This document shows positions 20,157 through 34,853 of a stretch of DNA of 43,778 nucleotides, piece by piece. This DNA is from a bacterium ADurb.Bin243. GTDB taxonomy: Bacteria > Muiribacteriota > UBA9980. The stretch is from NCBI GenBank assembly GCA_002069765.1, contig MWBZ01000028.1, positions 1-43,778 on the forward strand. The letters run 5' to 3'. The stretch's first letter is position 1. Every line of letters begins with the position of its first letter. Under the pieces are notes generated by a model. The model had not been told where the DNA came from. It saw only the letters and a list, made by a program, of their open reading frames with translations, and made no database searches. The position numbers and the translations under genes were made by a program.

Positions 20157-21767
20157 TCAGTCGAGCGAAAGGATGCCTATTGAATCGCAGTAATCGTTGG
20201 CGCGGCTGTATGTTAAAACTACTTTGTATTTTGAATCGTGCCTGATGCACTCGTAATCGCCTATGGCGCGAAGCGCGGCGATTTGAGTGAGCGATTTATT
20301 GACCGCGCGGTACGCGTATAAGGCGGTCGATTCGGGAATGGAACTGCCTGATGCGTAATGGCAGACCTTGAATAAAACGATCTTTCCGTCAAAACTGAAC
20401 CTGGCGTCGCCGAGGGAGCCGCGGCCGAAGTTATAAAAAAATGAATCGTATTCGTTATTTGCGGCAGCGTCGTACACGCGGAACTTTTTTTCGGCCATGT
20501 CGTAAAAAAAAGCCATGGGCCTCGCTGCGTTTGACGAGAGTGCGGCAGCCGGGCCGAATTTATCGTCTATAATATTTTTATGGATTTGCAGATTTTTTGC
20601 GGCGGGCTGTTTGACGGCCATTTTGCCTATGATTTCAACTCGCGCTTCGCCGTTTTTATCGGCCGTGAGCATTACGTAACTTCCGTCGCGGGATTTTTTC
20701 GAGCGAAGTACGAGCGTTTCAGCGGTTTCTTCGCGGAGGTCTGAAAATTTATCGGCGACGCCGAGGGTAGCGGGCGGAGAGAAGGTCCAGCGTTTAAAAT
20801 CCGACCTGTCTTTTAAAAATACGTCGGGTGAATAGGAAATTAAAAACGAGGGTTTTTGGGCGTCGAGCAGGCTGAAATCGAATATGGCGCCGGTGAAGTT
20901 TGACTGTCTGGAGAACCTGAAGTTATAATCCATGCTGTAAATATTTATGTTTCCTTCGCCCGGGCCCATTAAAAGATAAACGAATTTATCTTCGGCGGAT
21001 ATGTTTTCCATTCTGGACAGAATCATTTTTTTAAATACCATGCTGCTGGAAACCGCGTATCGCGAAGGGCAGTCGAATTCGTTGACCGAGTCTTCGCTTA
21101 TGGATAAAGACGAGCGCAGGGCCCCGGCGGAGTTTATAACCGCGTTCGGCGCGAGTATATTGGCTTCGCGGGCGGTTATGGCGTCTGAAACGCGGAAGCC
21201 TTTAAGGGTCCCGGCGGTTTCTATAAATATATAGTTTCCGAGATAAGATGCGCCGAGAGGTTTTGAGCCGAGAGGCGCCCTGTAAAGGGGAAACGCGCGG
21301 CCGCGGAAAAGCGCCTGGCATGAAAAAACATATAAATGCCAGTCGGACGCTATGACGGAGTGATATCTTTTTTTATTGATTTCTAAAGGAATGCTGAATA
21401 TTATTTTGCCGTCGCATACCATGTTTTTGTGAAACGAGGCGAATGATTTTTCTCCGTCATCCGCGGTTTCGCAGAGCTTGACCGGAGACTGGGGCCCTAT
21501 GCCCCCTATTTCACAGGCGCCGTCGGCGAGCTGTATTTTATAACGAAGCGTTTTGCCGCCGGGGTGAACCGAGTCGAAATATAAGTGAAAATCGTCGGCC
21601 TTCATGGAGTCTTTAACTATTTCAATGCCGCGGCGGTCAACCGAAAAACGCTGCGTGATAAACACCTCGGCCGAGCCCGCCGCGCGCTGCGCGAATGCGG
21701 TATTAACGCAAAGAACATTGAAAAGAACCAGGAAAAATACTATAAATTTCAAATGAAATGATTTCAT
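20157..21767 (-). CDS. Secreted protein of unknown function
   Basis: The 536-residue protein has a clear signal peptide (FIVFFLVLFNVLCVNTAFA, cleavage near residue 26) and no later membrane helix. I recognise no family. The mature part is rich in short beta-strand segments separated by turns, with repeated patterns such as GSYVMLTADKNGEARVEI, ARPMAFFYDMAEKKFRVYD and DARFSFDGKIVLFKV. These resemble the blades of TolB/WD40-type propellers, but the similarity is weak. Eight or so cysteines are scattered through the mature part, so disulfides are possible. It lies 54 bases after the pullulanase gene and 34 bases before alr on the same strand, suggesting co-transcription. A periplasmic or outer-surface location is inferred from the signal peptide only. 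Confidence 0.7.
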   Translation of the reverse strand: MKSFHLKFIVFFLVLFNVLCVNTAFAQRAAGSAEVFITQRFSVDRRGIEIVKDSMKADDFHLYFDSVHPGGKTLRYKIQLADGACEIGGIGPQSPVKLCETADDGEKSFASFHKNMVCDGKIIFSIPLEINKKRYHSVIASDWHLYVFSCQALFRGRAFPLYRAPLGSKPLGASYLGNYIFIETAGTLKGFRVSDAITAREANILAPNAVINSAGALRSSLSISEDSVNEFDCPSRYAVSSSMVFKKMILSRMENISAEDKFVYLLMGPGEGNINIYSMDYNFRFSRQSNFTGAIFDFSLLDAQKPSFLISYSPDVFLKDRSDFKRWTFSPPATLGVADKFSDLREETAETLVLRSKKSRDGSYVMLTADKNGEARVEIIGKMAVKQPAAKNLQIHKNIIDDKFGPAAALSSNAARPMAFFYDMAEKKFRVYDAAANNEYDSFFYNFGRGSLGDARFSFDGKIVLFKVCHYASGSSIPESTALYAYRAVNKSLTQIAALRAIGDYECIRHDSKYKVVLTYSRANDYCDSIGILSLD

Positions 21768-24228: not shown

Positions 24229-24257
24229 ATTATACAATACAAAGTCGAAGTTGTAAA
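24229..24257 (-). promoter_or_regulatory. Sigma70-type promoter of the pullulanase gene
   Basis: Read leftward, TTTACA (24252-24257) and a perfect TATAAT (24229-24234) are separated by 17 bases. The predicted start near 24222 gives a leader of about 75 bases before the ATG at 24146. It is back to back with the promoter at 24286, with about 28 bases between the two -35 boxes. Confidence 0.8.
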
Positions 24258-24285
24258 CATTTAAAGTAAAAAATATCAATAAATA

Positions 24286-24314
24286 TTGACAAAAGATTAA
24301 AAGTTTGATATATT
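24286..24314 (+). promoter_or_regulatory. Sigma70-type promoter of the parvulin-repeat gene
   Basis: A perfect TTGACA -35 (24286-24291), a 17-base spacer and TATATT at -10 (24309-24314) make this one of the strongest promoters in the window. The predicted start near 24321 leaves about 70 bases of A+T-rich leader before the ATG at 24393. It diverges from the pullulanase promoter. Confidence 0.85.
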
Positions 24315-24392
24315 CACGACATTAAATTAAAAAAAGGTATTATATTTTAGTAAAAAAATAAAATATAAAATTTGAAGGGAGAAATTTTTTCA

Positions 24393-27300
24393 ATGAACCA
24401 GGGGTCAATTTTTTTCTCAAAAAACAACGTCATCGTTAAAGTAGTCATCTGGTCGGTAGTAGCGGCTTTCGTTCTATCGATCTTCATCTTCGCCGGCACT
24501 TTCCATCTCAACCAGCAACAGCAGCAGGCCGTCGAGGACCTTAAAAACCTCAACAAAAAGAAAGTTTCCGACAGCGATTATAAAAAAGTCCTCGCGAGCG
24601 TCAAATTTGCAACCGACGAAGTAATCGACGTCACCGCCGGCGATTTTTACGATATCCTCCACCGCCAGGACGAACAGTTCCGCAAGTTCTACTCCACTAA
24701 AAAGCAGCGCGAAGAACTGCTTAACCAGATCGTAGAAGTAAAAATAATGGAAAATAAATCCAAGAGAATAATCCCCACTCCGGCTGACTACGATGAAGAA
24801 ATAAACAAGATATTCCCTTCCAAACAGCAGATGGAAGAATATATGAAAAACAGCGGCATGACGCGTGAAATACTCGAAGAACGCCTCAGACCTCAGGTTC
24901 AGGAAAAACTTCTCAAACGCCAGCTTTCCAAACCCCGCGAAATCGCCGAAGAGCTCCTCAACAAATATTACGAAGAGCATAAAAAAGAATTCGTCGAAAT
25001 GCAGACGCTTCCCGGCGAATCCAAAGAAACCGAAGTCCAGAAGTCTTTTGCCGACGTTAAAGAAATCATACGCGCTAAACTTCTCAAAGAAGTATCAGAC
25101 GCTGACATCCAGAAATATTACGAAGAGCACAAAGGCCGCTATAAAAACCCCCTTACAATGGATTTAGCTCATTTATTCATTAAAGCGGATTCTGAAGCTA
25201 TAAAAAAATCTATAAACCCTACCGACGAAGAACTTAAAAAATACCATTCCGAAAATAAAGACAAATACAAAACTCCCCGTACTTTCGAAGTTAAAGCTAT
25301 CGTAAAACCCTACGACAACAAAGAACTTCGCGATGCGGTTACCGTTTCCGAAACCGAAGCGGTAGAATTTTACGGCAAAAATAACGCAAAATTCACAACG
25401 AGAGCTCATTTAGATCTCAAGAGCATACTCGTAGACCCTAAATCGAAAGCGCGCGTAGAAGCGTTAAAACCTACCGATGAAGAGCTTCTCGCTTTCTACA
25501 ACCAGACCGACGAAGTAAAGGCTTCGCACATCCTCGTAAAAGACGAAACTCACGCTATCGAGCTCAAAAAGAAAATAGACGGCGGAGCTAATTTCGAAGA
25601 ACTCGCGAAATCCGATTCCACATGCCCTTCAAAAGATAAAGGCGGCGACCTCGGATTCTTTAAGCGCGATATGATGGTAAAACCTTTTTCGGACGCTGCG
25701 TTTGCGCTTAAAATAGGCGAAATCACCGGTCCCGTAAAGAGCGATTTCGGTTACCACATAATCAAATCGACTGATCAGAAAACCGCGTATTCAAAACCTT
25801 TCGACGAAGTAAAAGAAGAAGTCAAAAAAACTTATATTGAGAAAAAACTCGACGAACAGGCTAAAGCCATTGCCGAAGACGTAGTTAAAAAGATAAAGGC
25901 CGGCGAAAGCTTCGCGGAACTCGCGGCTAAATACTCCGACGGCGCTTCGAAAAGCAACGGCGGCGTTTTAGGCACTATCTATCAGGACAACAAAGAACCT
26001 ATCGAAAATATAGAAAAACTTACGGGCGAAGTGGCTATGAACGGCCGCGTTTTAGACAACATATTATACACGGCTTTCGCTCTCAATAGCGACACGACGC
26101 CTTCAGAAGTGATAAAAACCCCTCTCGGCTTCCACGTTGTAATGGCCTCTAACAAAGTAGATTCCAGGCTCAAACCTTACGAAGAATGCAAAGCCGAAGT
26201 TATCGAAGAATTCAAAAAAGACGCGGCTAAAGTTAAAGTAGACGAAATAATGAACGAAGTTTACTCCAAGCTTACAAAAGGCGGCTTCAAGTTCGAAGAG
26301 ATCCAGGCTAAATATTCCGACGGACCTTCGGCAAAATCAGGCGAAGTTTGCGGAAAAATATATCTCGGAGAACTTCCTAAAAATTACGACAAATCAAAAT
26401 TAGCCGGCGAAATAATTCAAAAAGCCGAAGACGAAATACCCGCCGAAGTTACCTCGGCTCTCGCTAAACTCACTTTCGAAGGCCAGTGCAGCGAAGTTAT
26501 AAAACTTCCATGGGCCGCGGTTATATTAAAAGCCGAAAAGATATACGAACCTTCGTTTAAATCTTTCGAAGACGCTAAAGACGCTCTTAAAGCCGCTTAC
26601 ATAAGCCAGAAAACCGAAGAGTTAATAAAGAAAACGCTTACCGACGCCAGAGAAAAAGCCGTTAAAGGCGAAGATTTCGGCGCGCTGGCAAAAAGCGTTT
26701 CAGAAGGCGTTACCAAAGATAAAGCCGGAGAAATCGGCCTTATCGTTAAAGGCGAAGGTTTTAAAGACAAATCGGCCGCCGATAAATATAAAGGCGAAGT
26801 CAGCATGCCCTGGGGCACCATGATCGATCCCGCCATTGAAGAAGCGGTATTCGAACTTGAAAAAGGCGCGTATTCAGATGTAATCAAATCGTCTTTCGGC
26901 TTCCATGTATTTAAAGTCAAAGATAGAATAACCGACAGCTATAAAGAACTCGGCGAAGTAAAAGATAAAATTAAAGAAACGCTTTCCAGAAGCGCGCTGG
27001 TTACCGACGAAGAAATCAAAACATATTACGAACAGCATAAATCCGAATATACCACGCAGGAACGCGCTAAAGTCAGAATCATAGTTGTCCCGACCGAAGC
27101 CGAAGCAGAAAAAATACATACCGAATTGACCAAAAACAAAAAAGATTTCGCCGAGCTTGCCACCCAGTTCTCTAAAGATCTGGCTACCAAAACCAAAGGC
27201 GGAGATATGGGCTTTATAACCCGCGGCCAGGTCAACCAGGCCCTCGAAAACGCGGCGTTCAGCCTCGGTATCGGCGCGGTTTCGAGCGTATTCAAAACGC

Positions 27301-27503
27301 CGGCCGGCTACAACATAATACAGGTGACTGAAAAAGAAGCCGCAAAAACCGCTTCTCTAGAAGAAAAACGCGAAGAAATCAAACAGATACTTGCTTCGCC
27401 TAAAGAAAACGAAATCTACAAAGAATACATGAGCGAACTTCGCAATTCGCTCGACGTGGGCTATAAGAAAGAAAATTTCGAATTGCTCACCAAGTATGAA
27501 TAA
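24393..27503 (+). CDS. Membrane-anchored multi-parvulin peptidyl-prolyl isomerase (SurA/PpiD-like)
   Basis: The 1036-residue protein probably has one N-terminal transmembrane helix (about 15-35) and a periplasmic body, like PpiD. A helical SurA/PrsA-like chaperone region follows (about 75-290) with spaced YY-E-HK-Y/F motifs. Parvulin units then appear at about 374-460, 495-588, 618-715, 745-843 and 888-980. The first (ASHILVKDE, FEELAKSDSTCPSKDKGGDLGFF, FGYHIIK) and the last (FAELATQFSKDL, KGGDMGFITRG, AGYNIIQ) are the most canonical. The middle three lack a clear first strand or carry insertions. The ATG at 24393 is preferred to TTG at 24372 because GAAGGGAG lies upstream of it. Very high Lys and Glu content. 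It probably folds exported or outer-membrane proteins. Confidence 0.88.
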   Translation: MNQGSIFFSKNNVIVKVVIWSVVAAFVLSIFIFAGTFHLNQQQQQAVEDLKNLNKKKVSDSDYKKVLASVKFATDEVIDVTAGDFYDILHRQDEQFRKFYSTKKQREELLNQIVEVKIMENKSKRIIPTPADYDEEINKIFPSKQQMEEYMKNSGMTREILEERLRPQVQEKLLKRQLSKPREIAEELLNKYYEEHKKEFVEMQTLPGESKETEVQKSFADVKEIIRAKLLKEVSDADIQKYYEEHKGRYKNPLTMDLAHLFIKADSEAIKKSINPTDEELKKYHSENKDKYKTPRTFEVKAIVKPYDNKELRDAVTVSETEAVEFYGKNNAKFTTRAHLDLKSILVDPKSKARVEALKPTDEELLAFYNQTDEVKASHILVKDETHAIELKKKIDGGANFEELAKSDSTCPSKDKGGDLGFFKRDMMVKPFSDAAFALKIGEITGPVKSDFGYHIIKSTDQKTAYSKPFDEVKEEVKKTYIEKKLDEQAKAIAEDVVKKIKAGESFAELAAKYSDGASKSNGGVLGTIYQDNKEPIENIEKLTGEVAMNGRVLDNILYTAFALNSDTTPSEVIKTPLGFHVVMASNKVDSRLKPYEECKAEVIEEFKKDAAKVKVDEIMNEVYSKLTKGGFKFEEIQAKYSDGPSAKSGEVCGKIYLGELPKNYDKSKLAGEIIQKAEDEIPAEVTSALAKLTFEGQCSEVIKLPWAAVILKAEKIYEPSFKSFEDAKDALKAAYISQKTEELIKKTLTDAREKAVKGEDFGALAKSVSEGVTKDKAGEIGLIVKGEGFKDKSAADKYKGEVSMPWGTMIDPAIEEAVFELEKGAYSDVIKSSFGFHVFKVKDRITDSYKELGEVKDKIKETLSRSALVTDEEIKTYYEQHKSEYTTQERAKVRIIVVPTEAEAEKIHTELTKNKKDFAELATQFSKDLATKTKGGDMGFITRGQVNQALENAAFSLGIGAVSSVFKTPAGYNIIQVTEKEAAKTASLEEKREEIKQILASPKENEIYKEYMSELRNSLDVGYKKENFELLTKYE

Positions 27504-27586: not shown

Positions 27587-27841
27587 ATGCGTCTGGATAA
27601 ATTTTTAAAACTTTATAGAATAATCAAGAGGCGCACGCTCGCCCAGCAGGCCTGCGACGACGGCTTCGTGCTCGTCAACGGCCGTCCGGCAAAGTCGGGT
27701 AAAGAGCTTTCTCAAAATGATGAAGTGACGGTTAATTTCACCCAGGCCGGAAACCGCGTCAGGGTAAAGATACTCAGGCTGCGCGACGGCAACGTCGTAT
27801 CGCCTGAAGATATCAGCGTCACCGAAGAAAAACTGCAATAG
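27587..27841 (+). CDS. rqcP: S4-domain RNA-binding protein, RqcP/HslR-like
   Basis: The 84-residue protein is almost entirely an S4 domain: MRLDKFLKLYRIIKRRTLA, the VLVNGRPAKSGKEL hairpin and DEVTVNFTQ. This matches the RqcP (YabO)/Hsp15 group, which binds stalled 50S subunits carrying peptidyl-tRNA. In Firmicutes RqcP works with RqcH in C-terminal alanine tailing; in proteobacteria HslR has a related role. The R-IKRRT pattern and short length favour RqcP. The other members of the pathway are not in the window. A ribosome binding site (AAAGGACGG) lies upstream, and ksgA follows after 53 bases, forming a small ribosome-related pair. Confidence 0.82.
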   Translation: MRLDKFLKLYRIIKRRTLAQQACDDGFVLVNGRPAKSGKELSQNDEVTVNFTQAGNRVRVKILRLRDGNVVSPEDISVTEEKLQ

Positions 27842-27894
27842 TATCCTCAATTTTTTCCGCCTCCGGCCCGCGGCCGCTCGAGGTAAAGAAATAA

Positions 27895-28848
27895 ATGCAG
27901 ATGACATATCCTTCTTCAGTTATTAATATCATAAAAGAATTCAATATCAGCGCCGACAAAAAGTACGGGCAGTGCTTTCTTATCGATAATAACGCGCTCG
28001 ATAAAATCGCCGATTCCGCGCAGATAGGCGGCGAAGAGCTGGTTATCGAAATCGGTTCCGGCCCCGGCAATTTAACGGCCAGGCTTTGCTCGCGCGCCCG
28101 TTACGTTATAGCTTTTGAAACCGATATTAACCTTTTTAAAATTTACGATAAATATTTCAAAGGCTTGAACGTTTCTTTCAAGCAGATGGATTTTTTAAAG
28201 GCCGATCTTCATAAATTAATTTCAGACGCGGCGGCCGAAAATAAAATCGATTTCGCGTCCGTAAGGGTCGTCGCTAATATCCCCTATTACATAACGTCTC
28301 AAATTATCGAAAAATTGCTTTACTCCAATATAAAATTCAGCGGCATCTACCTTTTAATTCAGCGCGACGTCGCCGACAGAATCGCAGCGCAGCCGGGATG
28401 CGGAGAGTACGGCATTTTAAGCGTCGCATGCGCCCTTAAATCAAAGGCCGCGATAGTCAGAAAAGTTCCCGGAACATGTTTTTACCCGGTACCGGAAGTG
28501 GAATCGGCACTCGTTAAACTCGAACCTTTCGACCGTTTTTCAGGCTCGGCGTTTAATGAGGAAATATTTTTCGCGATAGTAAAATCCGCGTTCAATCAAA
28601 GGCGTAAAGTGGCCGTCAGCGCGATTTCTAATAATATAGAGCGCGTCGGCGAAATTAACCGTTACGACGCCGGATTTCTCGCTTTTTTAAAATCGCGTTC
28701 CCTTAAAGCCGATTTTTCGCATATATTTGAAAAGCTCGGAATTTCAAAGCTGGCGCGCGCGGAAGAAATATCGTGCGAAGGCTATATATCCATCGCCCGC
28801 GAGCTGGAAGCTATTTCAGCTTCAGCCGTCCGGGGCGTGAATTCTTAA
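27895..28848 (+). CDS. ksgA: 16S rRNA dimethyladenosine transferase KsgA/RsmA
   Basis: This enzyme dimethylates the two adjacent adenosines in the 3' terminal hairpin of 16S rRNA during small-subunit maturation. The KYGQCFLIDNNALDKIA start, the SAM-binding EIGSGPGNLT, the acidic FETDIN, and the catalytic NIPYYIT motif (residues about 130-136) define the family. Near the end are CFYPVPEVESALVKLEP and AFNQRRKV. The 317 residues are slightly longer than typical (about 270) because of a longer linker and C-terminus. A second in-frame ATG occurs two codons in, so the exact start is open. The upstream GAGGTAAAG is an adequate ribosome binding site. Confidence 0.93.
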   Translation: MQMTYPSSVINIIKEFNISADKKYGQCFLIDNNALDKIADSAQIGGEELVIEIGSGPGNLTARLCSRARYVIAFETDINLFKIYDKYFKGLNVSFKQMDFLKADLHKLISDAAAENKIDFASVRVVANIPYYITSQIIEKLLYSNIKFSGIYLLIQRDVADRIAAQPGCGEYGILSVACALKSKAAIVRKVPGTCFYPVPEVESALVKLEPFDRFSGSAFNEEIFFAIVKSAFNQRRKVAVSAISNNIERVGEINRYDAGFLAFLKSRSLKADFSHIFEKLGISKLARAEEISCEGYISIARELEAISASAVRGVNS

Positions 28849-28871
28849 TAAGCCGCCGTCAAAAAAGCCGC

Positions 28872-28900
28872 TTGTAATTCGCTGTGATATCTGGTAAAAT
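28872..28900 (+). promoter_or_regulatory. Sigma70-type promoter of the Kdo/Lpt operon
   Basis: TTGTAA (28872-28877) and TAAAAT (28895-28900) are separated by exactly 17 bases, and the predicted start is near 28907. It lies just downstream of ksgA and is the only good promoter seen before kdsA, so it likely drives kdsA through lptB. The transcript would begin with the hairpin at 28906-28937. Confidence 0.65.
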
Positions 28901-28905
28901 ATTGT

Positions 28906-28937
28906 GCCGGGCAAATGAATCAATTCGTTTGCCGGGC
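28906..28937 (+). promoter_or_regulatory. Hairpin at the predicted 5' end of the Kdo/Lpt transcript
   Basis: Fourteen-base arms (GCCGGGCAAATGAA and TTCGTTTGCCGGGC) with one mismatch and one G-U wobble enclose a four-base TCAA loop. It starts at the predicted transcription start and ends 47 bases before the kdsA start codon. There is no U tract after it. A 5' stabilising stem, or a weak terminator for ksgA read-through, are both possible. Confidence 0.5.
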
Positions 28938-28984
28938 CGTTAAACTTCATTAAAATACAAAGACTTCAGGAATGGAGAGTTGTT

Positions 28985-29824
28985 TTGTTAAAAGATACTA
29001 AAAAAATCAATATAGCCGGTGAAAGTTTTATAGGCGGCGACTCAAAATTTTGCGTGATCGCCGGCCCGTGCGTTATCGAAAATATAGATATGCTTCATAA
29101 AACCTGCTCTTTTTTAAAAGGCGAAACCGCGAAGCGCGGCTTTAGTTATGTGTTTAAAACGTCTTACGACAAGGCGAACCGCACTTCCCTCAAGGGATAC
29201 CGCGGTCCGGGCCTTAAAGACGGCCTTAAGATGATAGACGAGATCAAAAGGACCTATCAGGTGCCCGTGCTCGTGGATGTGCATGAAAGCTCGCACGTGG
29301 CCCCCGCCGCCGAAGTGGCCGACATACTCCAGATCCCGGCTTTTCTATGCCGGCAGACCGATTTCATTAGAGACGTGGCTTCGAGCGGAAAGTGCGTCAA
29401 TATAAAAAAAGGGCAGTTCGTCGCGCCCGGCGACGTTCGTTATATAGCCGACAAAGTGCTCGACGCCGGAAACTCCCGAATAATCCTCACGGAGCGCGGG
29501 TTCGCATTCGGTTACAATAACCTGGTATTCGATCCGCGCGCGCTTTATATAATGAGAAAAACCGGATTTCCCGTCGTCTTCGACGCCACGCACTGCGTTC
29601 AGATGCCTTCGGCGTCCTCTGGAACTTCAGGCGGAGTGAGAGAACTGGTCCTGCCATACGCGCGTTCGGCTTACGCAATGGGAATCGACGGGCTCTTTCT
29701 CGAAGTGCACGAAAACCCCGACGCCGCGCTTTGCGACGGGCCAAATATGCTCGATTTCAAGCTCTTTTGCTCGCTTATGGACCAGATCGGCGACCTCGGC
29801 GCGGCTATTTACGAAAAAATATAA
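28985..29824 (+). CDS. kdsA: 3-deoxy-8-phosphooctulonate synthase
   Basis: KdsA condenses arabinose 5-phosphate with phosphoenolpyruvate to Kdo 8-phosphate, the committed step to the Kdo sugar linking lipid A to the LPS core. The 279 residues match the family: FCVIAGPCVIEN, FKTSYDKANRTS, YRGPGLKDGLKMI, DILQIPAFLCRQTD, NIKKGQFVAPGD, FDATHCVQMP and LEVHENPDAALCDGPNML. The translation start appears to be TTG at 28985, eight bases after GGAG, with no in-frame ATG nearby. The active-site asparagine in KANRTS and the Cys in GPCVIEN are compatible with known enzymes. I did not determine metal dependence. It is first of six Kdo/LPS-export genes. Confidence 0.95.
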   Translation: MLKDTKKINIAGESFIGGDSKFCVIAGPCVIENIDMLHKTCSFLKGETAKRGFSYVFKTSYDKANRTSLKGYRGPGLKDGLKMIDEIKRTYQVPVLVDVHESSHVAPAAEVADILQIPAFLCRQTDFIRDVASSGKCVNIKKGQFVAPGDVRYIADKVLDAGNSRIILTERGFAFGYNNLVFDPRALYIMRKTGFPVVFDATHCVQMPSASSGTSGGVRELVLPYARSAYAMGIDGLFLEVHENPDAALCDGPNMLDFKLFCSLMDQIGDLGAAIYEKI

Positions 29825-29891
29825 GCGCCGCCGCCCGCGATAAATTATATAATAAGAATTTTTTTTTAGAACCCGGTAAAGAAGTGATTTT

Positions 29892-30872
29892 ATGGAAGAC
29901 ATTTTTATAGACGTCATATCCGAAATACGCTCGATTTTAGTTCACGAAAGCGCCGCGTTGAGCGGCCTTCAGGAGCATATCGGCGATAACTATCTTCAGG
30001 CCGTAAGGATGATACACAATTCCAGCGGAATGCTCATCGTGGTCGGAATGGGAAAATCCGGCCTGGTAGGCCGAAAAATAGCGGCCACGCTGTCTTCGCT
30101 CGGCACGCCTTCGGCCTTTATGCATGCCTCCGAAGCGCTGCACGGCGATCTGGGCATGATAAAACCGAACGACGTTTTGCTGATGATCAGCAACAGCGGT
30201 AAAACGCGCGAACTTATAGAAATCATCCCATACGCCAAAAGGATAGGCGCTAAGATAATCGCGATAACGCATAACTCCGATTCGGAACTGGCCCGCACCA
30301 GCGACGTCGTACTGCCGCTCGTCTACGCTAGCGAAGCCTGCCCGTTCAACCTGGCCCCGACCACTTCCACCACCATGACATTAGCCATCGGCGACGCTAT
30401 TGCCATAGTTCTTACGAAGCTTAAAAATTTCAAGCCGCGCGATTTCGCCACCCTTCATCCGGGCGGCTCTCTCGGCAGGCGGCTGCTGATAACGGTGGCC
30501 GATCTCATGCATACCGGCGATCAGCTTCCCCTGGCTTCTGCCGATACCCCTCTCATAGAAGCGCTTCCGCTCATGTCGCAGAAAAAGCTCGGAACTATAC
30601 TCATTACCGGCGCCGGCGGCACGCTTCTGGGAATACTTACCGACGGCGACCTGCGAAGGATTTTATGCAGGCTCGGGGCCGATTCGATCAAAGCCCGCAT
30701 AGGCGAGGTTATGACGGTGAACCCACGCAGGATAAGCCCCGAAAAGCTATGCGAAGAAGCCATAAATATAATGGAATCCCATAAAATTACGACGCTTCCC
30801 GTGGTAACGGCCGAAGGCGTACTTATGGGCGTAATACACCTGCACGACCTTTTGAAGGCTAAAATATATTAA
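29892..30872 (+). CDS. kdsD: D-arabinose-5-phosphate isomerase (SIS plus two CBS domains)
   Basis: This isomerises ribulose 5-phosphate to the arabinose 5-phosphate used by KdsA. The 326-residue protein has the standard layout. The SIS sugar-isomerase domain (about 35-185) carries VVGMGKSGLVGRKIAATLSS, LGTPSAFMHASEALHGDLGMI and MISNSGKTREL, followed by ACPFNLAPTTSTT and FATLHPGGSLGRRL. Two CBS domains follow (about 205-260 and 270-326). The name KdsD/KpsF depends on species context. The adjacent kdsA and kdsC favour the LPS-Kdo role. An AAAGAAGTG sequence precedes the ATG, and the gap from kdsA is 67 bases. Confidence 0.93.
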   Translation: MEDIFIDVISEIRSILVHESAALSGLQEHIGDNYLQAVRMIHNSSGMLIVVGMGKSGLVGRKIAATLSSLGTPSAFMHASEALHGDLGMIKPNDVLLMISNSGKTRELIEIIPYAKRIGAKIIAITHNSDSELARTSDVVLPLVYASEACPFNLAPTTSTTMTLAIGDAIAIVLTKLKNFKPRDFATLHPGGSLGRRLLITVADLMHTGDQLPLASADTPLIEALPLMSQKKLGTILITGAGGTLLGILTDGDLRRILCRLGADSIKARIGEVMTVNPRRISPEKLCEEAINIMESHKITTLPVVTAEGVLMGVIHLHDLLKAKIY

Positions 30873-30928
30873 GGCATGCGCGGGTTTTGTTAAGATTAAA
30901 AAAACTAATAAAACGATGGAGGTAATAT

Positions 30929-31447
30929 ATGTCTATATTTACTAACATTAAGCTTATAGCCATGGATGTCGACGGCGTTTTAACCGACGGCTCCATTATC
31001 ATGAGCTCGTCCGGCGAGGAACTCAAAGCTTTTTCGGTGCACGACGGAGTCGGCGTCAAGCTGGCCCACCTTTCAGGAATGACGACTGCCGTAATTACCG
31101 GCCGCTCGTCGTCTGTTGTCGTCAAAAGAGCCAAAGAACTCGGCATAAACGAGATTTATCAGGACGTAGTCGATAAGGAACTCGCTCTGGAAGAACTTCT
31201 TGAAAAATATAAACTGAAAGATTACCAGGTCGCATATATAGGAGACGATCTCAACGATCTTAAGGTAATGAGGCGCGTGGGGCTTAAAATCGCCACGCTT
31301 AACGCGGTGCGCGAAATTAAAGATATCGCCGATTTTATAACCGAGTTCGAAGGCGGAAAAGGCGCCGTGCGCGACGCTATAAACGCTATACTCGAAAAAA
31401 AGGGCGTCCTCGCCGAAGCTATAAATAAATACTGCAACCTGAAGTAA
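30929..31447 (+). CDS. kdsC: 3-deoxy-D-manno-octulosonate-8-phosphate phosphatase
   Basis: KdsC removes phosphate from Kdo 8-phosphate to release Kdo. The 172-residue protein is a C0-type HAD phosphatase without a cap domain: motif I MDVDGVLTDGS, motif II ITGRSS, the conserved Lys in KELALEELLEKY and motif III GDDLNDL. The length and the FSVHDGVGVKLA segment are typical of KdsC tetramers. GGAGG lies just upstream of the ATG. It lies between kdsD and the LptC-like gene. All three Kdo-making steps are therefore consecutive; the CMP-Kdo synthetase kdsB is absent from the window. Confidence 0.95.
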   Translation: MSIFTNIKLIAMDVDGVLTDGSIIMSSSGEELKAFSVHDGVGVKLAHLSGMTTAVITGRSSSVVVKRAKELGINEIYQDVVDKELALEELLEKYKLKDYQVAYIGDDLNDLKVMRRVGLKIATLNAVREIKDIADFITEFEGGKGAVRDAINAILEKKGVLAEAINKYCNLK

Positions 31448-31544
31448 GCGGGCGATAAAAATTTTTAAAAAGAAGCTTAAAAAAATCATAAAAAAAACAA
31501 TAGACAAAACTGTCGCGCTTATAGTATTTTTTAAATTCGGCCGC

Positions 31545-32222
31545 GTGGATTATAAAAATCATAAGTACTATCCTTACGCCGAATTTTTTCTGGAACGCCG
31601 CCATTATTTTTATTACGCTTTAATGTTTTTTGTTTTTTTATGGCTTTACGACGTTTATAATACATCCGGAATGTTCGCCGAACGGCGCGGGTCGGCCATC
31701 GAGCTTTTCACTATCGATTTCGTCAAAAAGACCGAAAATAAAGTCGAGTGGATGCTCAGCGCCGACAAGCTCATTAAGGATGAAAGCTACAATAAGAACT
31801 ATTTTACCAACATTAAATTCACGACCGACCCGGCGTCCGATTCCGTGCAGTTGATAACCTCTAAAGAAGCCGTGCACGACGCCAATTTGAAAATCATTAA
31901 TTTTTCGGGCAACGTCCATGTCAAATCCATTTATCCGGATACCTCCGAAGTTACGGCGGAAGCCGGAGAAAAAAACGCGGCTCTGCCGGCGGGCGAAAAG
32001 ACCGATTTTTTCGAGCGCGGCAGGCCTAAAAAATTTCTCGAAGACAACATGTACACCGACTCGCTCGAATATTACTACGAAAACCAGGTGCTGATAGCCC
32101 GAAATCCGGTCAAGATAGTCAGGCCGAAAATGGAGATAGCCGGCAATAGCCTCGAAGAAAGGTTCAAAGAAAAAAAAGCCCGGATCGCGGGTAACGTCAG
32201 GATAAAAATATATGAGGAATAG
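31545..32222 (+). CDS. lptC: LptC-like LPS export periplasmic protein
   Basis: LptC is an inner-membrane-anchored periplasmic protein that receives LPS from LptBFG and passes it to LptA. This 225-residue protein has one N-terminal transmembrane helix (YYALMFFVFLWLYDVY) and then a beta-rich domain with short OstA-like motifs (VHVKSIYPDTSEVTAEAG, YTDSLEYYYENQVLIARNPVKI, NSLEERFKEKKARIAGNVRIKI). Similarity is weak, so its identity rests mainly on the position between kdsC and the OstA-like gene. The start is uncertain: GTG at 31545 has no ribosome binding site. The same frame continues upstream, open to ATA at 31455, encoding a very basic N-terminus; no ATG, GTG or TTG occurs in that extension. 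Confidence 0.75.
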   Translation: MDYKNHKYYPYAEFFLERRHYFYYALMFFVFLWLYDVYNTSGMFAERRGSAIELFTIDFVKKTENKVEWMLSADKLIKDESYNKNYFTNIKFTTDPASDSVQLITSKEAVHDANLKIINFSGNVHVKSIYPDTSEVTAEAGEKNAALPAGEKTDFFERGRPKKFLEDNMYTDSLEYYYENQVLIARNPVKIVRPKMEIAGNSLEERFKEKKARIAGNVRIKIYEE

Positions 32223-32229
32223 CTTGAAC

Positions 32230-34131
32230 ATGAAAGAAAAAAGGGCGATAAAAATATTTTTGATTTTAGCTTCGCTGCTTCTGGCCGCGATTTTCGTTCT
32301 TCAAATTTCGCCGCAATCCAGCCTTCGTTTTGAAGTTTACGCGCAGCAGGCCGAAAAAGCCGGCGCCGCCGAAAAAACTTCGGGGCCGGAAGCGGAAAAG
32401 GCAAAAACGGCGGCGGCGGGCAAAAAAAAGCAGGCCATCGAGATAACGGGCGATCTTTTTGAAATGGAGTCCGACGGCACTTATGTGATAACCGGCAACG
32501 TCCACGTATATCAGGGCAGCCGCACCATCGTCTGCGAGCGCGGCACGTATAACGAAAAAACCGGGATAGTAAGGGCTTTTACCAACGTGGAAATACTCGA
32601 CGCCAAGTTTAAAATGAAGTGCCAGCGAGTCGATTCGCATATGAAAGAAAATTATTCGCTTTTTTCGGGAGGCGTTGTAGTTGACGGAAATAATTTCAAG
32701 GCTACTTCGGAGCGCGCTTTTTACTACGAAAAAGAAGAAAAGGCCGTGCTGATAGGCAATCCTGTTGCTAAAAGCCTCGACCAGACGCCCAACGAAGTCC
32801 ACGGCGAACGCATAATCTACTTCATGAAGACCGAACGCATGGAAGTGCTCAATAACGTTACCGCTTTTATACAGCCGAAGGAAAAAGAAAAAGAGGGCGC
32901 AGTCACTCACATAACGGGTAACCGCCTTGAAATTCTTACCGACGGCCGTTATCAGGTAACCGATAACCTGCGCGTCCTGAAAAAAGATATGATCCTTTAC
33001 GCCGACAGAGGCATATATGATGAAACCAGCGAAGTAACCGAAGCTTTCGGCAACGTCAAGGTCGAAACCAGCAAATACACACTTACTTCCGGATACGTAA
33101 AACACCTTGCAAAAGAAGACCGCACGCTGGCCAACATAAAGCCCAGGCTTATACAGATAGTCGATAAGAAAAAACGCGTTTTGCCTTCCGATGAAAATAA
33201 ACCCGAAAGCTCCGGCGGAGACGCTTCCGAAAAAACCGCGGCCGGCGAAAGCGGCCAGGCCGCTGAAGGCAAAGACGGCAAGGACGATAAAGACGCCGGC
33301 GGAGAAAAAACGGCCGCAGGGGAAAGCGAAGGAAAGGAATCCAAAAAGAAGATATCCAACAAAGACAAGATAATACTCGAAGCCAACGAGATAGAGGCGC
33401 TCGAAAACAGCACTCATATAGTCGCTAAAGGCGACGCGTCGCTCGTGCAATTTCCTTACCTCGGCCAGGAAGGCACCGAAGGGGTCGAAATCAATTCCAA
33501 AATCGAATCCCAGATCATGGATATTTTCACCGAAGAAGGCAAAATGGTCGCCAAACAGGACGTAGTTCTCACTTCAAAAGATATTACCGCCTACGGCGAC
33601 ACCGCCACATATTACGAAAGGGAAGACCGGCTCGATATAGAAGGCAACGCACACGCCATACAGCGCCGCGGCAAAGGCCAGGAAGACAACGACATAGTCG
33701 GCGACAAGATCACTTATTTCGCTTCGACCGAAAGGATTCTCATAAAAGCGCCGAAAATAAAATTTTTTCAGACAAGCAAAGACGAAAAGACACTGCCTGA
33801 AATCGAAAAAGATACCGCGCCCGTGCGCCTTAAACGCAAAAAAGCAGATTCTACGGCTGAAGTGGCGCTCGGCGCAACTTCCGAAGTGGCCGTCAAAAAT
33901 ACCTCCGAAGTCGGTATCGCAACGCGGTCTGGAGGCGCCACCGACGAGACGGCGGTTAAAAGCCCCGCCGTTACCGGCGAAAATCTGATCAGAAGGCCGC
34001 GCAAGGCGCCTGAAACCGCGCCGGCGCCCGCGGAACCGCAAACCGGCAAGCCGCGCGATCCGGACGCCAACGTTAGAATAAAAATAAATCCAAGCGGCAA
34101 AGTAAGCGACGTGAAGGTGAGAAACAGGTAA
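32230..34131 (+). CDS. lptA: Large OstA/LptA-like LPS transport protein
   Basis: LptA builds the periplasmic bridge that carries LPS. This roughly 633-residue protein is more than three times the usual length of about 180. After a signal anchor ([16 protein letters not shown]) come OstA-type repeats such as [51 protein letters not shown] and [20 protein letters not shown] charged Gly/Lys/Asp/Glu-rich linker follows (about 320-375), then a further OstA block ([21 protein letters not shown] to [15 protein letters not shown]), and a Pro/Ala/Thr-rich tail ending in [15 protein letters not shown] at 32230 is chosen because AGGAA overlaps the lptC stop; ATG at 32212 is possible. The stop overlaps lptB by one base. 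Confidence 0.82.
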
Positions 34132-34853
34132 TGGAAAGTTTGGCCGTAGTTAACGCTTTAAAAACATACTCCAAAAGAAGGGTAGTCGATAACGTTTCCC
34201 TCGAAGTGCTCAAAGGCGAAATAGTAGGACTTCTGGGGCCTAACGGAGCCGGAAAGACCACAACTTTTTACATGGTCGTCGGCCTTGTTATGCCCGATGA
34301 AGGCCGCATTCTGCTCAGCGGCCAGGACATAACCTACGATCCCATGTATAAGCGCGCCCGGCAGGCGATCGGATATCTCGCGCAGGAGCCTTCGGTTTTC
34401 AGAAAACTCACCGTCGAGGAAAATATAATGGCTATACTCGAATTTACGCCGCTCACGCCGGCCGAGCAGAAAGAAAAGTGCGAAAAGCTTCTGCACGACC
34501 TCAACATTACCAAGATCGCCAGAAGCTACGGATACGCCCTCTCAGGCGGCGAGCGGCGCCGCGTTGAAATAGCCAGGGCGCTGACGACCGACCCGTCCTT
34601 TATCCTGCTCGACGAACCTTTCGCCGGCGTCGATCCGATAGCGGTGCTCGACATCCAGCAGATAGTGAAAAAATTAAAAGAACGCGGGCTCGGCGTTCTG
34701 ATTACCGACCATTCGGTTAGAGAAACCCTGCAGATTACCGACCGCGCCTACGTTATGAATAACGGAAAAATACTCATTGCCGGCCGCCCCGACGATATAG
34801 CCAATTCCGAAGAGGCCCGTAAAATATATCTGGGCGAAAATTTTTCGCTTTAA
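34131..34853 (+). CDS. lptB: LPS export ABC transporter ATP-binding protein
   Basis: LptB is the ATPase that powers extraction of LPS from the inner membrane with LptF and LptG. The 240 residues include Walker [10 protein letters not shown], the family-typical Q-loop segment [18 protein letters not shown], the signature [15 protein letters not shown], Walker [17 protein letters not shown] and the switch His in ITDHSVRET. The [23 protein letters not shown] and [14 protein letters not shown] segments are characteristic of LptB rather than LivG-type ATPases. It is coupled by a TAATG overlap to the OstA-like gene. LptF and LptG are not in the window. Confidence 0.95.

Follow-up and report, generated by a model that had tools for sequence, protein, structure and literature searches.

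The question raised by the 43,778-nucleotide stretch analyzed here (the window; contig MWBZ01000028.1 of bacterium ADurb.Bin243, phylum Muiribacteriota) is how several copies of one domain can be arranged in a single polypeptide. An open reading frame (ORF) on the forward strand (24393–27503; ATG at 24393, stop at 27503) encodes a PpiD-like foldase of 1036 amino acids (aa), and the original prediction, that about five parvulin-like units share one PpiD-like chain of more than 1000 residues, was borne out by our analysis. We consider it probable (at roughly 0.7) that the parvulin domains of this protein are nested, in the order S1 S2 S3 S4-U1 U2 U3 U4, followed in line by S5-U5, where U denotes a parvulin unit and S a helix-plus-strand module (Table 1).

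Table 1. Features of the foldase locus (window coordinates; residue numbers refer to the foldase)
Feature	Position	Strand	Basis
Sigma-70-like promoter, TTGACA-17-TATATT, TG before −10	24286..24314	+	pattern match only
Ribosome-binding-site-like (Shine-Dalgarno-like) GAAGGGAG, 11 bases 5′ of ATG 24393	24374..24381	+	by eye
PpiD-like foldase, 1036 aa, five parvulin units	24393..27503	+	
Putative N-terminal membrane anchor, approx. residues 13–35	24429..24497	+	hydrophobic stretch by eye
Putative N-terminal part of SurA/PpiD-type NC chaperone domain, approx. residues 46–233	24528..25091	+	helical in model
S1, helix + strand, residues 234–264, His260; proposed beta-1 of U4	25092..25184	+	profile; model strand 255–264
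S2, helix + strand, residues 276–306; proposed beta-1 of U3	25218..25310	+	profile; model strand 297–306
S3, helix + strand, residues 318–348; proposed beta-1 of U2	25344..25436	+	profile; strand not confident in model
S4, helix + strand, residues 360–383, beta-1 of U1 itself, His379	25470..25541	+	profile
U1, canonical parvulin, residues 373–463	25509..25781	+	PF00639, 79.1 bits
U2, parvulin unit without own beta-1, residues 480–588, beta-4 His581 kept	25830..26156	+	PF00639, 51.4 bits
U3, most degenerate unit, residues 603–716, no active-site His	26199..26540	+	PF00639, 38.6 bits
U4, parvulin unit without own beta-1, residues 738–845, beta-4 His838 kept	26604..26927	+	PF00639, 51.0 bits
S5, helix + strand, residues 870–899, beta-1 of U5, no His	27000..27089	+	profile
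U5, in-line parvulin, residues 901–981, both His replaced	27093..27335	+	PF00639, 74.6 bits
C-terminal helix, residues 989–1020	27357..27452	+	helix from model

The five units were identified by a Pfam scan of separate pieces of the protein, in which five stretches exceeded the curated cut-off of PF00639 (21.7 bits); the same five were found in the foldase when the whole genome was scanned with this family. The unit borders given in Table 1 are those of our own iterated parvulin profile. Each of the middle units (U2–U4) passed the Pfam cut-off on its own, as expected if they are indeed parvulins. An origin of the ORF as a fusion artefact was dropped, since both of the further genomes available for the genus have the frame open from end to end, at identities of 97% and 82%.

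The units differ in their active-site residues. The complete set is present in U1 (His379, Asp419, Met428, Phe432 and His455), and the expectation of at least two canonical units did not hold, as only U1 keeps these residues. In U5, Ile896 and Asn974 occupy the two His positions and Val and Leu replace Met and Phe, although the GGDMGF core is kept; judging from these replacements, the unit is probably disabled as an isomerase. One active-site His is found in U2 and none in U3 or U5, and U4 has both only if S1 provides its beta-1. The in-line residue set is missing from four of the five units.

The closest structural matches of U1 and U5 were parvulins of PrsA, a lipoprotein of approx. 280–300 aa with one such domain. 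In comparisons by VIA, U1 matched the PrsA fragment 6xd8 with Z 18.9 (93 residues, root-mean-square deviation [rmsd] 1.0, 58% identity) and U5 matched PrsA 6vj6 with Z 19.0 (95 residues, rmsd 1.0); the 50 rows listed by VIA-align for the full model were mainly matches to these two units and barely tested the middle ones. These data bear on function, whichever layout is adopted. A scaffold without an isomerase role, the units of which only bind clients or partners, would be in keeping with the residue losses in four units and with the parvulin of Escherichia coli PpiD, which is reported to be inactive through the change of a critical histidine (PMC9797188). We regard this as unlikely for the foldase, because U1 keeps the full set and is so close to the PrsA parvulin, and one Campylobacter PpiD is reported to be active (PMC5368265).

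The case for nesting begins with the modules. Residues 234–383 comprise four helix-plus-strand copies (S1–S4), and a fifth copy (S5) lies ahead of U5. In many rows the module overlaps the first residues of the following unit, so its strand can be taken as beta-1 of that unit. The spare strands (S1–S3) are equal in number to the units without a beta-1 (U2–U4). At the beta-1 His position, S2 has Ala. The module profile also matches E. coli PpiD (at 41.3 and 29.5 bits), and chance was therefore dropped as an explanation of the repeats.

A full-length structure model was built from an alignment of fragments (A4), since a mixed alignment (A3) had placed the beta-1 of ordinary PpiD on S3 rather than S4; its 39 rows consist of two full-length sequences, eight covering U1-U2 and 29 covering U1. 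In this model a strand stands directly before U1 (374–382) and U5 (891–899). The middle units open with long helices (470–502, 596–628 and 725–757 for U2, U3 and U4, respectively) and have no leading strand; their order of elements (three helices, a strand, helices, one or more strands) is that of a parvulin minus beta-1, which again agrees with their assignment to this fold. By ten-residue blocks, the predicted local distance difference test (pLDDT) was 92–98 in U1 and 84–96 in U5, and in U2–U4 approx. 70–94 at both ends and 35–56 in mid-unit. Matches to the Rotamase_3 profile start at position 11 in U1, 15 in U5 and 29–31 in U2–U4 (the U3 match being below the cut-off). Foldseek searches with the full-length model returned parvulins, PrsA and SurA, as well as the solved PpiD-YfgM complex (8zht_A; 774 columns, E 4.1e-9), which was not among the matches listed by the sequence searches; no paper on 8zht was found in the literature searched (mostly open-access).

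These features also bear on another layout, in which five tandem units would fold independently, like beads on a string, and the modules before U1 would form a separate spacer or repeat domain. The unit profiles do match in succession along the chain, U1 and U5 each form a complete in-line unit, and the model leaves the overall arrangement unfixed. We nevertheless judge such a string of beads to be improbable: in the model U2–U4 lack a leading strand of their own, strands stand before U1 (carrying the beta-1 His motif in many of the orthologues), and the homologous segments are nested in the published model of PpiD (PMC9643414).

Further evidence for the nested layout comes from the orthologues. 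Some match was found in 35 of the 36 genomes of the phylum that were searched, the window's own included; 33 stretches taken from 32 other genomes yielded 33 ORFs related to the query (matches were present in G016 and G028, from which no stretch was taken). The neighbouring genes support orthology for part of the loci: of the 33, several of which are cut, 15 have an S4-domain gene alongside and 12 a ksgA-like gene. With our own profile (E<0.01), five units were found in four ORFs (L029, L030, L033 and L035), four in 18, three in nine, two in one and none in one, the last two being fragments. Under looser scoring, seven of the nine three-unit ORFs showed a weak further unit; the two exceptions are L054, which is cut, and L055 (745 aa), with three units. 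Long orthologues are found throughout the sampled phylum, most of them having four units. The original suggestion of an expanded envelope-folding machine is fair as regards expansion, with the qualification that it is an expansion relative to PpiD, is shared by the sampled members of the phylum (usually as four units) and probably consists of nesting more than of added beads.

The order of elements is SSSS UUUU SU in the five-unit proteins, SSS UUU SU in those with four units and SS UU SU in L055. Unit hits of 1–5 bits that coincide with module strands or with a split U1 beta-1 (e.g., in L030, L031, L033, L034 and L037) were excluded from this count, and hits of 4 and 5 bits at the place of U5 in L047 and L038 were included. 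The 26 long orthologues were aligned with the window protein (A1, 27 rows), leaving out L034, L040, L054, L055, L058, L060 and L061, which are cut, shorter or fragments. The extra module (foldase residues 330–368) and the extra unit (665–790) are both filled in five of the 27 rows and both nearly empty in the remaining 22, and S3 is present only in the five-unit proteins. In a FastTree tree, the four-unit L031 is placed among the five-unit proteins, with local supports of 0.90 and 0.95, which suggests that both halves were gained or lost together.

The beta-1 His of S1 and the beta-4 His of U4, the outermost proposed pair, lie 578 residues apart. Among the 27 sequences both were lost in five, only that of S1 in two, only that of U4 in none, and both were kept in 20 (p = 2.6e-4; 4.0e-4 without two same-genus rows). 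The in-line control, S5-U5, also showed joint His loss (p = 1.4e-3), and none of the other 14 of the 16 strand × unit pairs fell below 0.05 (the lowest, S4-U5, being 0.079). We take this co-loss, read from aligned sequences, as support for nesting and not as proof. A looped array with sequential pairing (S1 with U2, S2 with U3, S3 with U4) would equally explain the linked occurrence of extra module and extra unit, but is very improbable, since the co-loss favours S1-U4 (S1-U2, p = 0.16) and the published model of E. coli PpiD has a nested layout (PMC9643414).

Several observations weigh against the nested reading. The order of modules relies on weak hits, the third module scoring 0–5 bits in L036, L040 and L044; U3 or U5 scored 4–12 bits in L032, L038, L039, L041, L045, L047 and L048, and L032 shows no S5. 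The profiles for S and U derive from sequences of the foldase family itself. The rows behind the His co-loss are related, and on the tree both residues were probably lost in about two separate lineages (L032/L038/L047 and L051/L059); L050 and L052 lost the S1 His alone, and the S2-U2 pair gave no signal (p = 0.47, 27 orthologues). The absence of beta-1 from the middle units is not visible with PF00639 or our own profile, in which U2–U4 start no later than U5, or nearly so. PpiD-like proteins show one module fewer than units (two versus three in E. coli); their outermost strand has no preceding helix motif, and the two numbers agree only if that strand is added.

The model itself is also of limited help. 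With a mean pLDDT of 69.3 and a predicted template modelling score of 0.37, its domains are usable and its overall arrangement is not; S1 and S2 appear as lone strands (pLDDT approx. 60–77), and the S3 region reaches only 29–40. The superposition on 8zht is poor overall (template modelling score 0.23 by target, rmsd 20.3). When U3 and U4 were modelled alone (residues 590–850, from a two-row alignment), pLDDT was 37.6, which fits missing strands and equally so shallow an alignment. As to kinship, the foldase scored 201.5 bits against the NCBIfam PpiD model PRK10788, below its cut-off of 493, and 313.9 bits against the generic PRK00059.1, above its cut-off of 303, the latter model matching seven stretches. 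None of the proteins in the genome stood out as a YfgM-like partner; the five TPR_21 matches all lie in frames of 767–1320 aa, far longer than YfgM (approx. 200 aa). Many bacteria lack yfgM (PMC9643414).

Is PpiD itself built in this manner? In the published AlphaFold2 model of the E. coli protein, the domains are ordered from the membrane as NC, second, third and parvulin; the second (187–223 + 477–578) and third (228–261 + 360–470) are each formed by two segments with the parvulin between them and, according to the authors, share a fold (PMC9643414). Profiles of the C-terminal segments of these domains were made from 12 PpiD-like loci (from the best 80 of the 572 loci of a contig scan of named genomes) together with E. 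coli PpiD, and compared by hhalign. The second-domain segment matched two parvulin profiles with probabilities of 96.3% and 94.7%, and U2 with 97.1%; for the third-domain segment the values were 94.1%, 91.6% and 98.1%, respectively. With reversed targets, and with 20 column shuffles of each target, as controls, the probability stayed at or below 1.5%. As single sequences the segments are often near or below the threshold (1.9 and 4.2 bits in E. coli PpiD), and in L073 they are plain (37 and 37 bits). On the strength of these profile comparisons, the second and third domains of PpiD are parvulin-derived. No statement of such an origin was found in the literature searched.

The foldase can be compared with E. 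coli PpiD. In both, strand-helix modules lead up to a central parvulin, after which interrupted, apparently parvulin-derived domains would be completed; both also appear to start with a membrane helix and to have NC-type helical regions at the two ends. E. coli PpiD, of 623 aa, has two interrupted domains and one unit scored significantly by our own profile, whereas the 1036-aa foldase would have three interrupted units, an in-line fifth and a canonical active site in U1. SurA resembles the foldase in having more than one parvulin and a presumed role in envelope protein folding; it is soluble, with two in-line parvulins and no membrane helix, and the five units of the foldase set it outside this pattern. 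The SurA-type chaperone region was recognised weakly (SurA_N_3, 11.9 bits, below the cut-off of 27.2), and the anchor region formed a helix (11–53) of low pLDDT in the full-length model.

In the contig scan, for which A1 was too diverse to serve, the best 80 of the 572 loci gave 91 ORFs with a unit: one unit in 74, two in 13, three hits in three and five in one. The five-unit ORF, L062, is 97% identical to the window protein, and apart from it no ORF exceeded three hits. L063 (513 aa) and L067 (491 aa, from a Nitrospira metagenome-assembled genome) have the layout of the foldase at a nest depth of one (module, U1, U2), with no U3, U4 or U5; the profile splits U2 of L063, so that two of its three hits are one unit. 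At approx. 500 aa, these ORFs (L063:5974–7515 and L067:1430–2905) represent a minimal one-level form. A depth series would thus comprise one interrupted layer in L063/L067, two in PpiD and most of the sampled phylum orthologues, and three here and in two other families.

Our best reading of the foldase is a PpiD-like chaperone of the translocon exit, nested one link deeper than PpiD and extended by an in-line unit, and not a new kind of machine. More generally, we lean towards the view that PpiD proteins are recursive nests of one fold, in which evolution changes the depth by adding or removing the two halves of a layer together; a longer arm would then hold the active parvulin farther from the translocon. 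Nesting by insertion has a precedent in cyanobacterial RNA polymerase, where it reaches six levels (PMC13114784), but in the present case a single fold would contain copies of itself. The literature searched, which covered few subscription papers, yielded no account of nested parvulins or of a chain with more than two of them; such four-domain proteins in it as could be recognised were of the FKBP type.

The nested reading suggests the following mechanism. The protein would be held by one N-terminal membrane helix; a SurA-type NC domain would lie next to the membrane, and an arm of parvulin domains inserted into one another would extend into the periplasm. Along the chain, the outer domains would begin with their beta-1 strands and hinge helices (S1, S2, S3), the canonical U1 would follow at the tip, and the interrupted domains would then be completed in reverse (U2 with S3, U3 with S2, U4 with S1). 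The in-line, probably disabled S5-U5 would come next, and the C-terminal helix is expected to complete the NC domain by likeness to E. coli PpiD (PMC9643414). The arm would therefore run NC, U4, U3, U2, U1, with U5 attached near its base. As proposed by analogy with PpiD, the protein may be held by the Sec translocon, beside SecYEG, and meet exported chains as they emerge. U1 would isomerise prolines, and the inactive middle units could serve as reach, links, hinges and binding surface; for the degenerate units, initially suggested to be client-binding modules, we prefer a role as arm links.

In bacteria, PpiD is positioned at the exit of the export channel; the nature of its non-parvulin domains is left open in the literature searched. 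If these are interrupted parvulins, PpiD, SurA and PrsA would form one series built from one domain, in which arm length is tuned by nesting, and the natural depth series would make the relation of reach to function testable.

The loop after beta-1 of U1 carries an insert of approx. 100 residues in a number of phylum orthologues (A1 columns approx. 530–660); in these proteins the canonical unit is itself interrupted. The copy at L046:7303–7680 gave no Pfam match up to E 1.

The scan of the whole genome with PF00639 revealed two further parvulin proteins, one of 498 aa with a single unit and one of 756 aa with two SurA-like cassettes. The latter (L007:190–2460, minus strand, contig C25) has its cassettes joined by a low-complexity linker rich in Lys, Ser and Glu.

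Directly behind the foldase (window 27587–34853) there appears to be a cluster for the making and export of lipopolysaccharide (LPS). It contains an S4-domain gene, genes which we take to be ksgA-, kdsA- and kdsD-like, and genes for a HAD hydrolase, LptC, a protein of 639 aa with LptA/LptD_N domains and an ABC ATPase. Given these Lpt-type genes and an Omp85 protein encoded elsewhere in the genome, the organism would seem to be a diderm equipped for LPS export.

The claim that the foldase lies behind one of the best promoters in the window proved correct at the level of pattern: the promoter-like site scores 11/12 and is one of three such sites in 7.3 kb, where 16 promoter-like sites were observed versus 9.6 (sd 3.2) in shuffles. 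It is one of two divergent promoter-like sites (window 24229–24314), both scoring 11/12 and 28 bases apart, the other of which faces an alpha-amylase/pullulanase-like gene on the minus strand. A protein of 536 aa with a signal-like N-terminus (window 20157–21767, minus strand), for which Pfam gave no match up to E 0.001, is conserved beside the amylase in the two other genomes of the genus.

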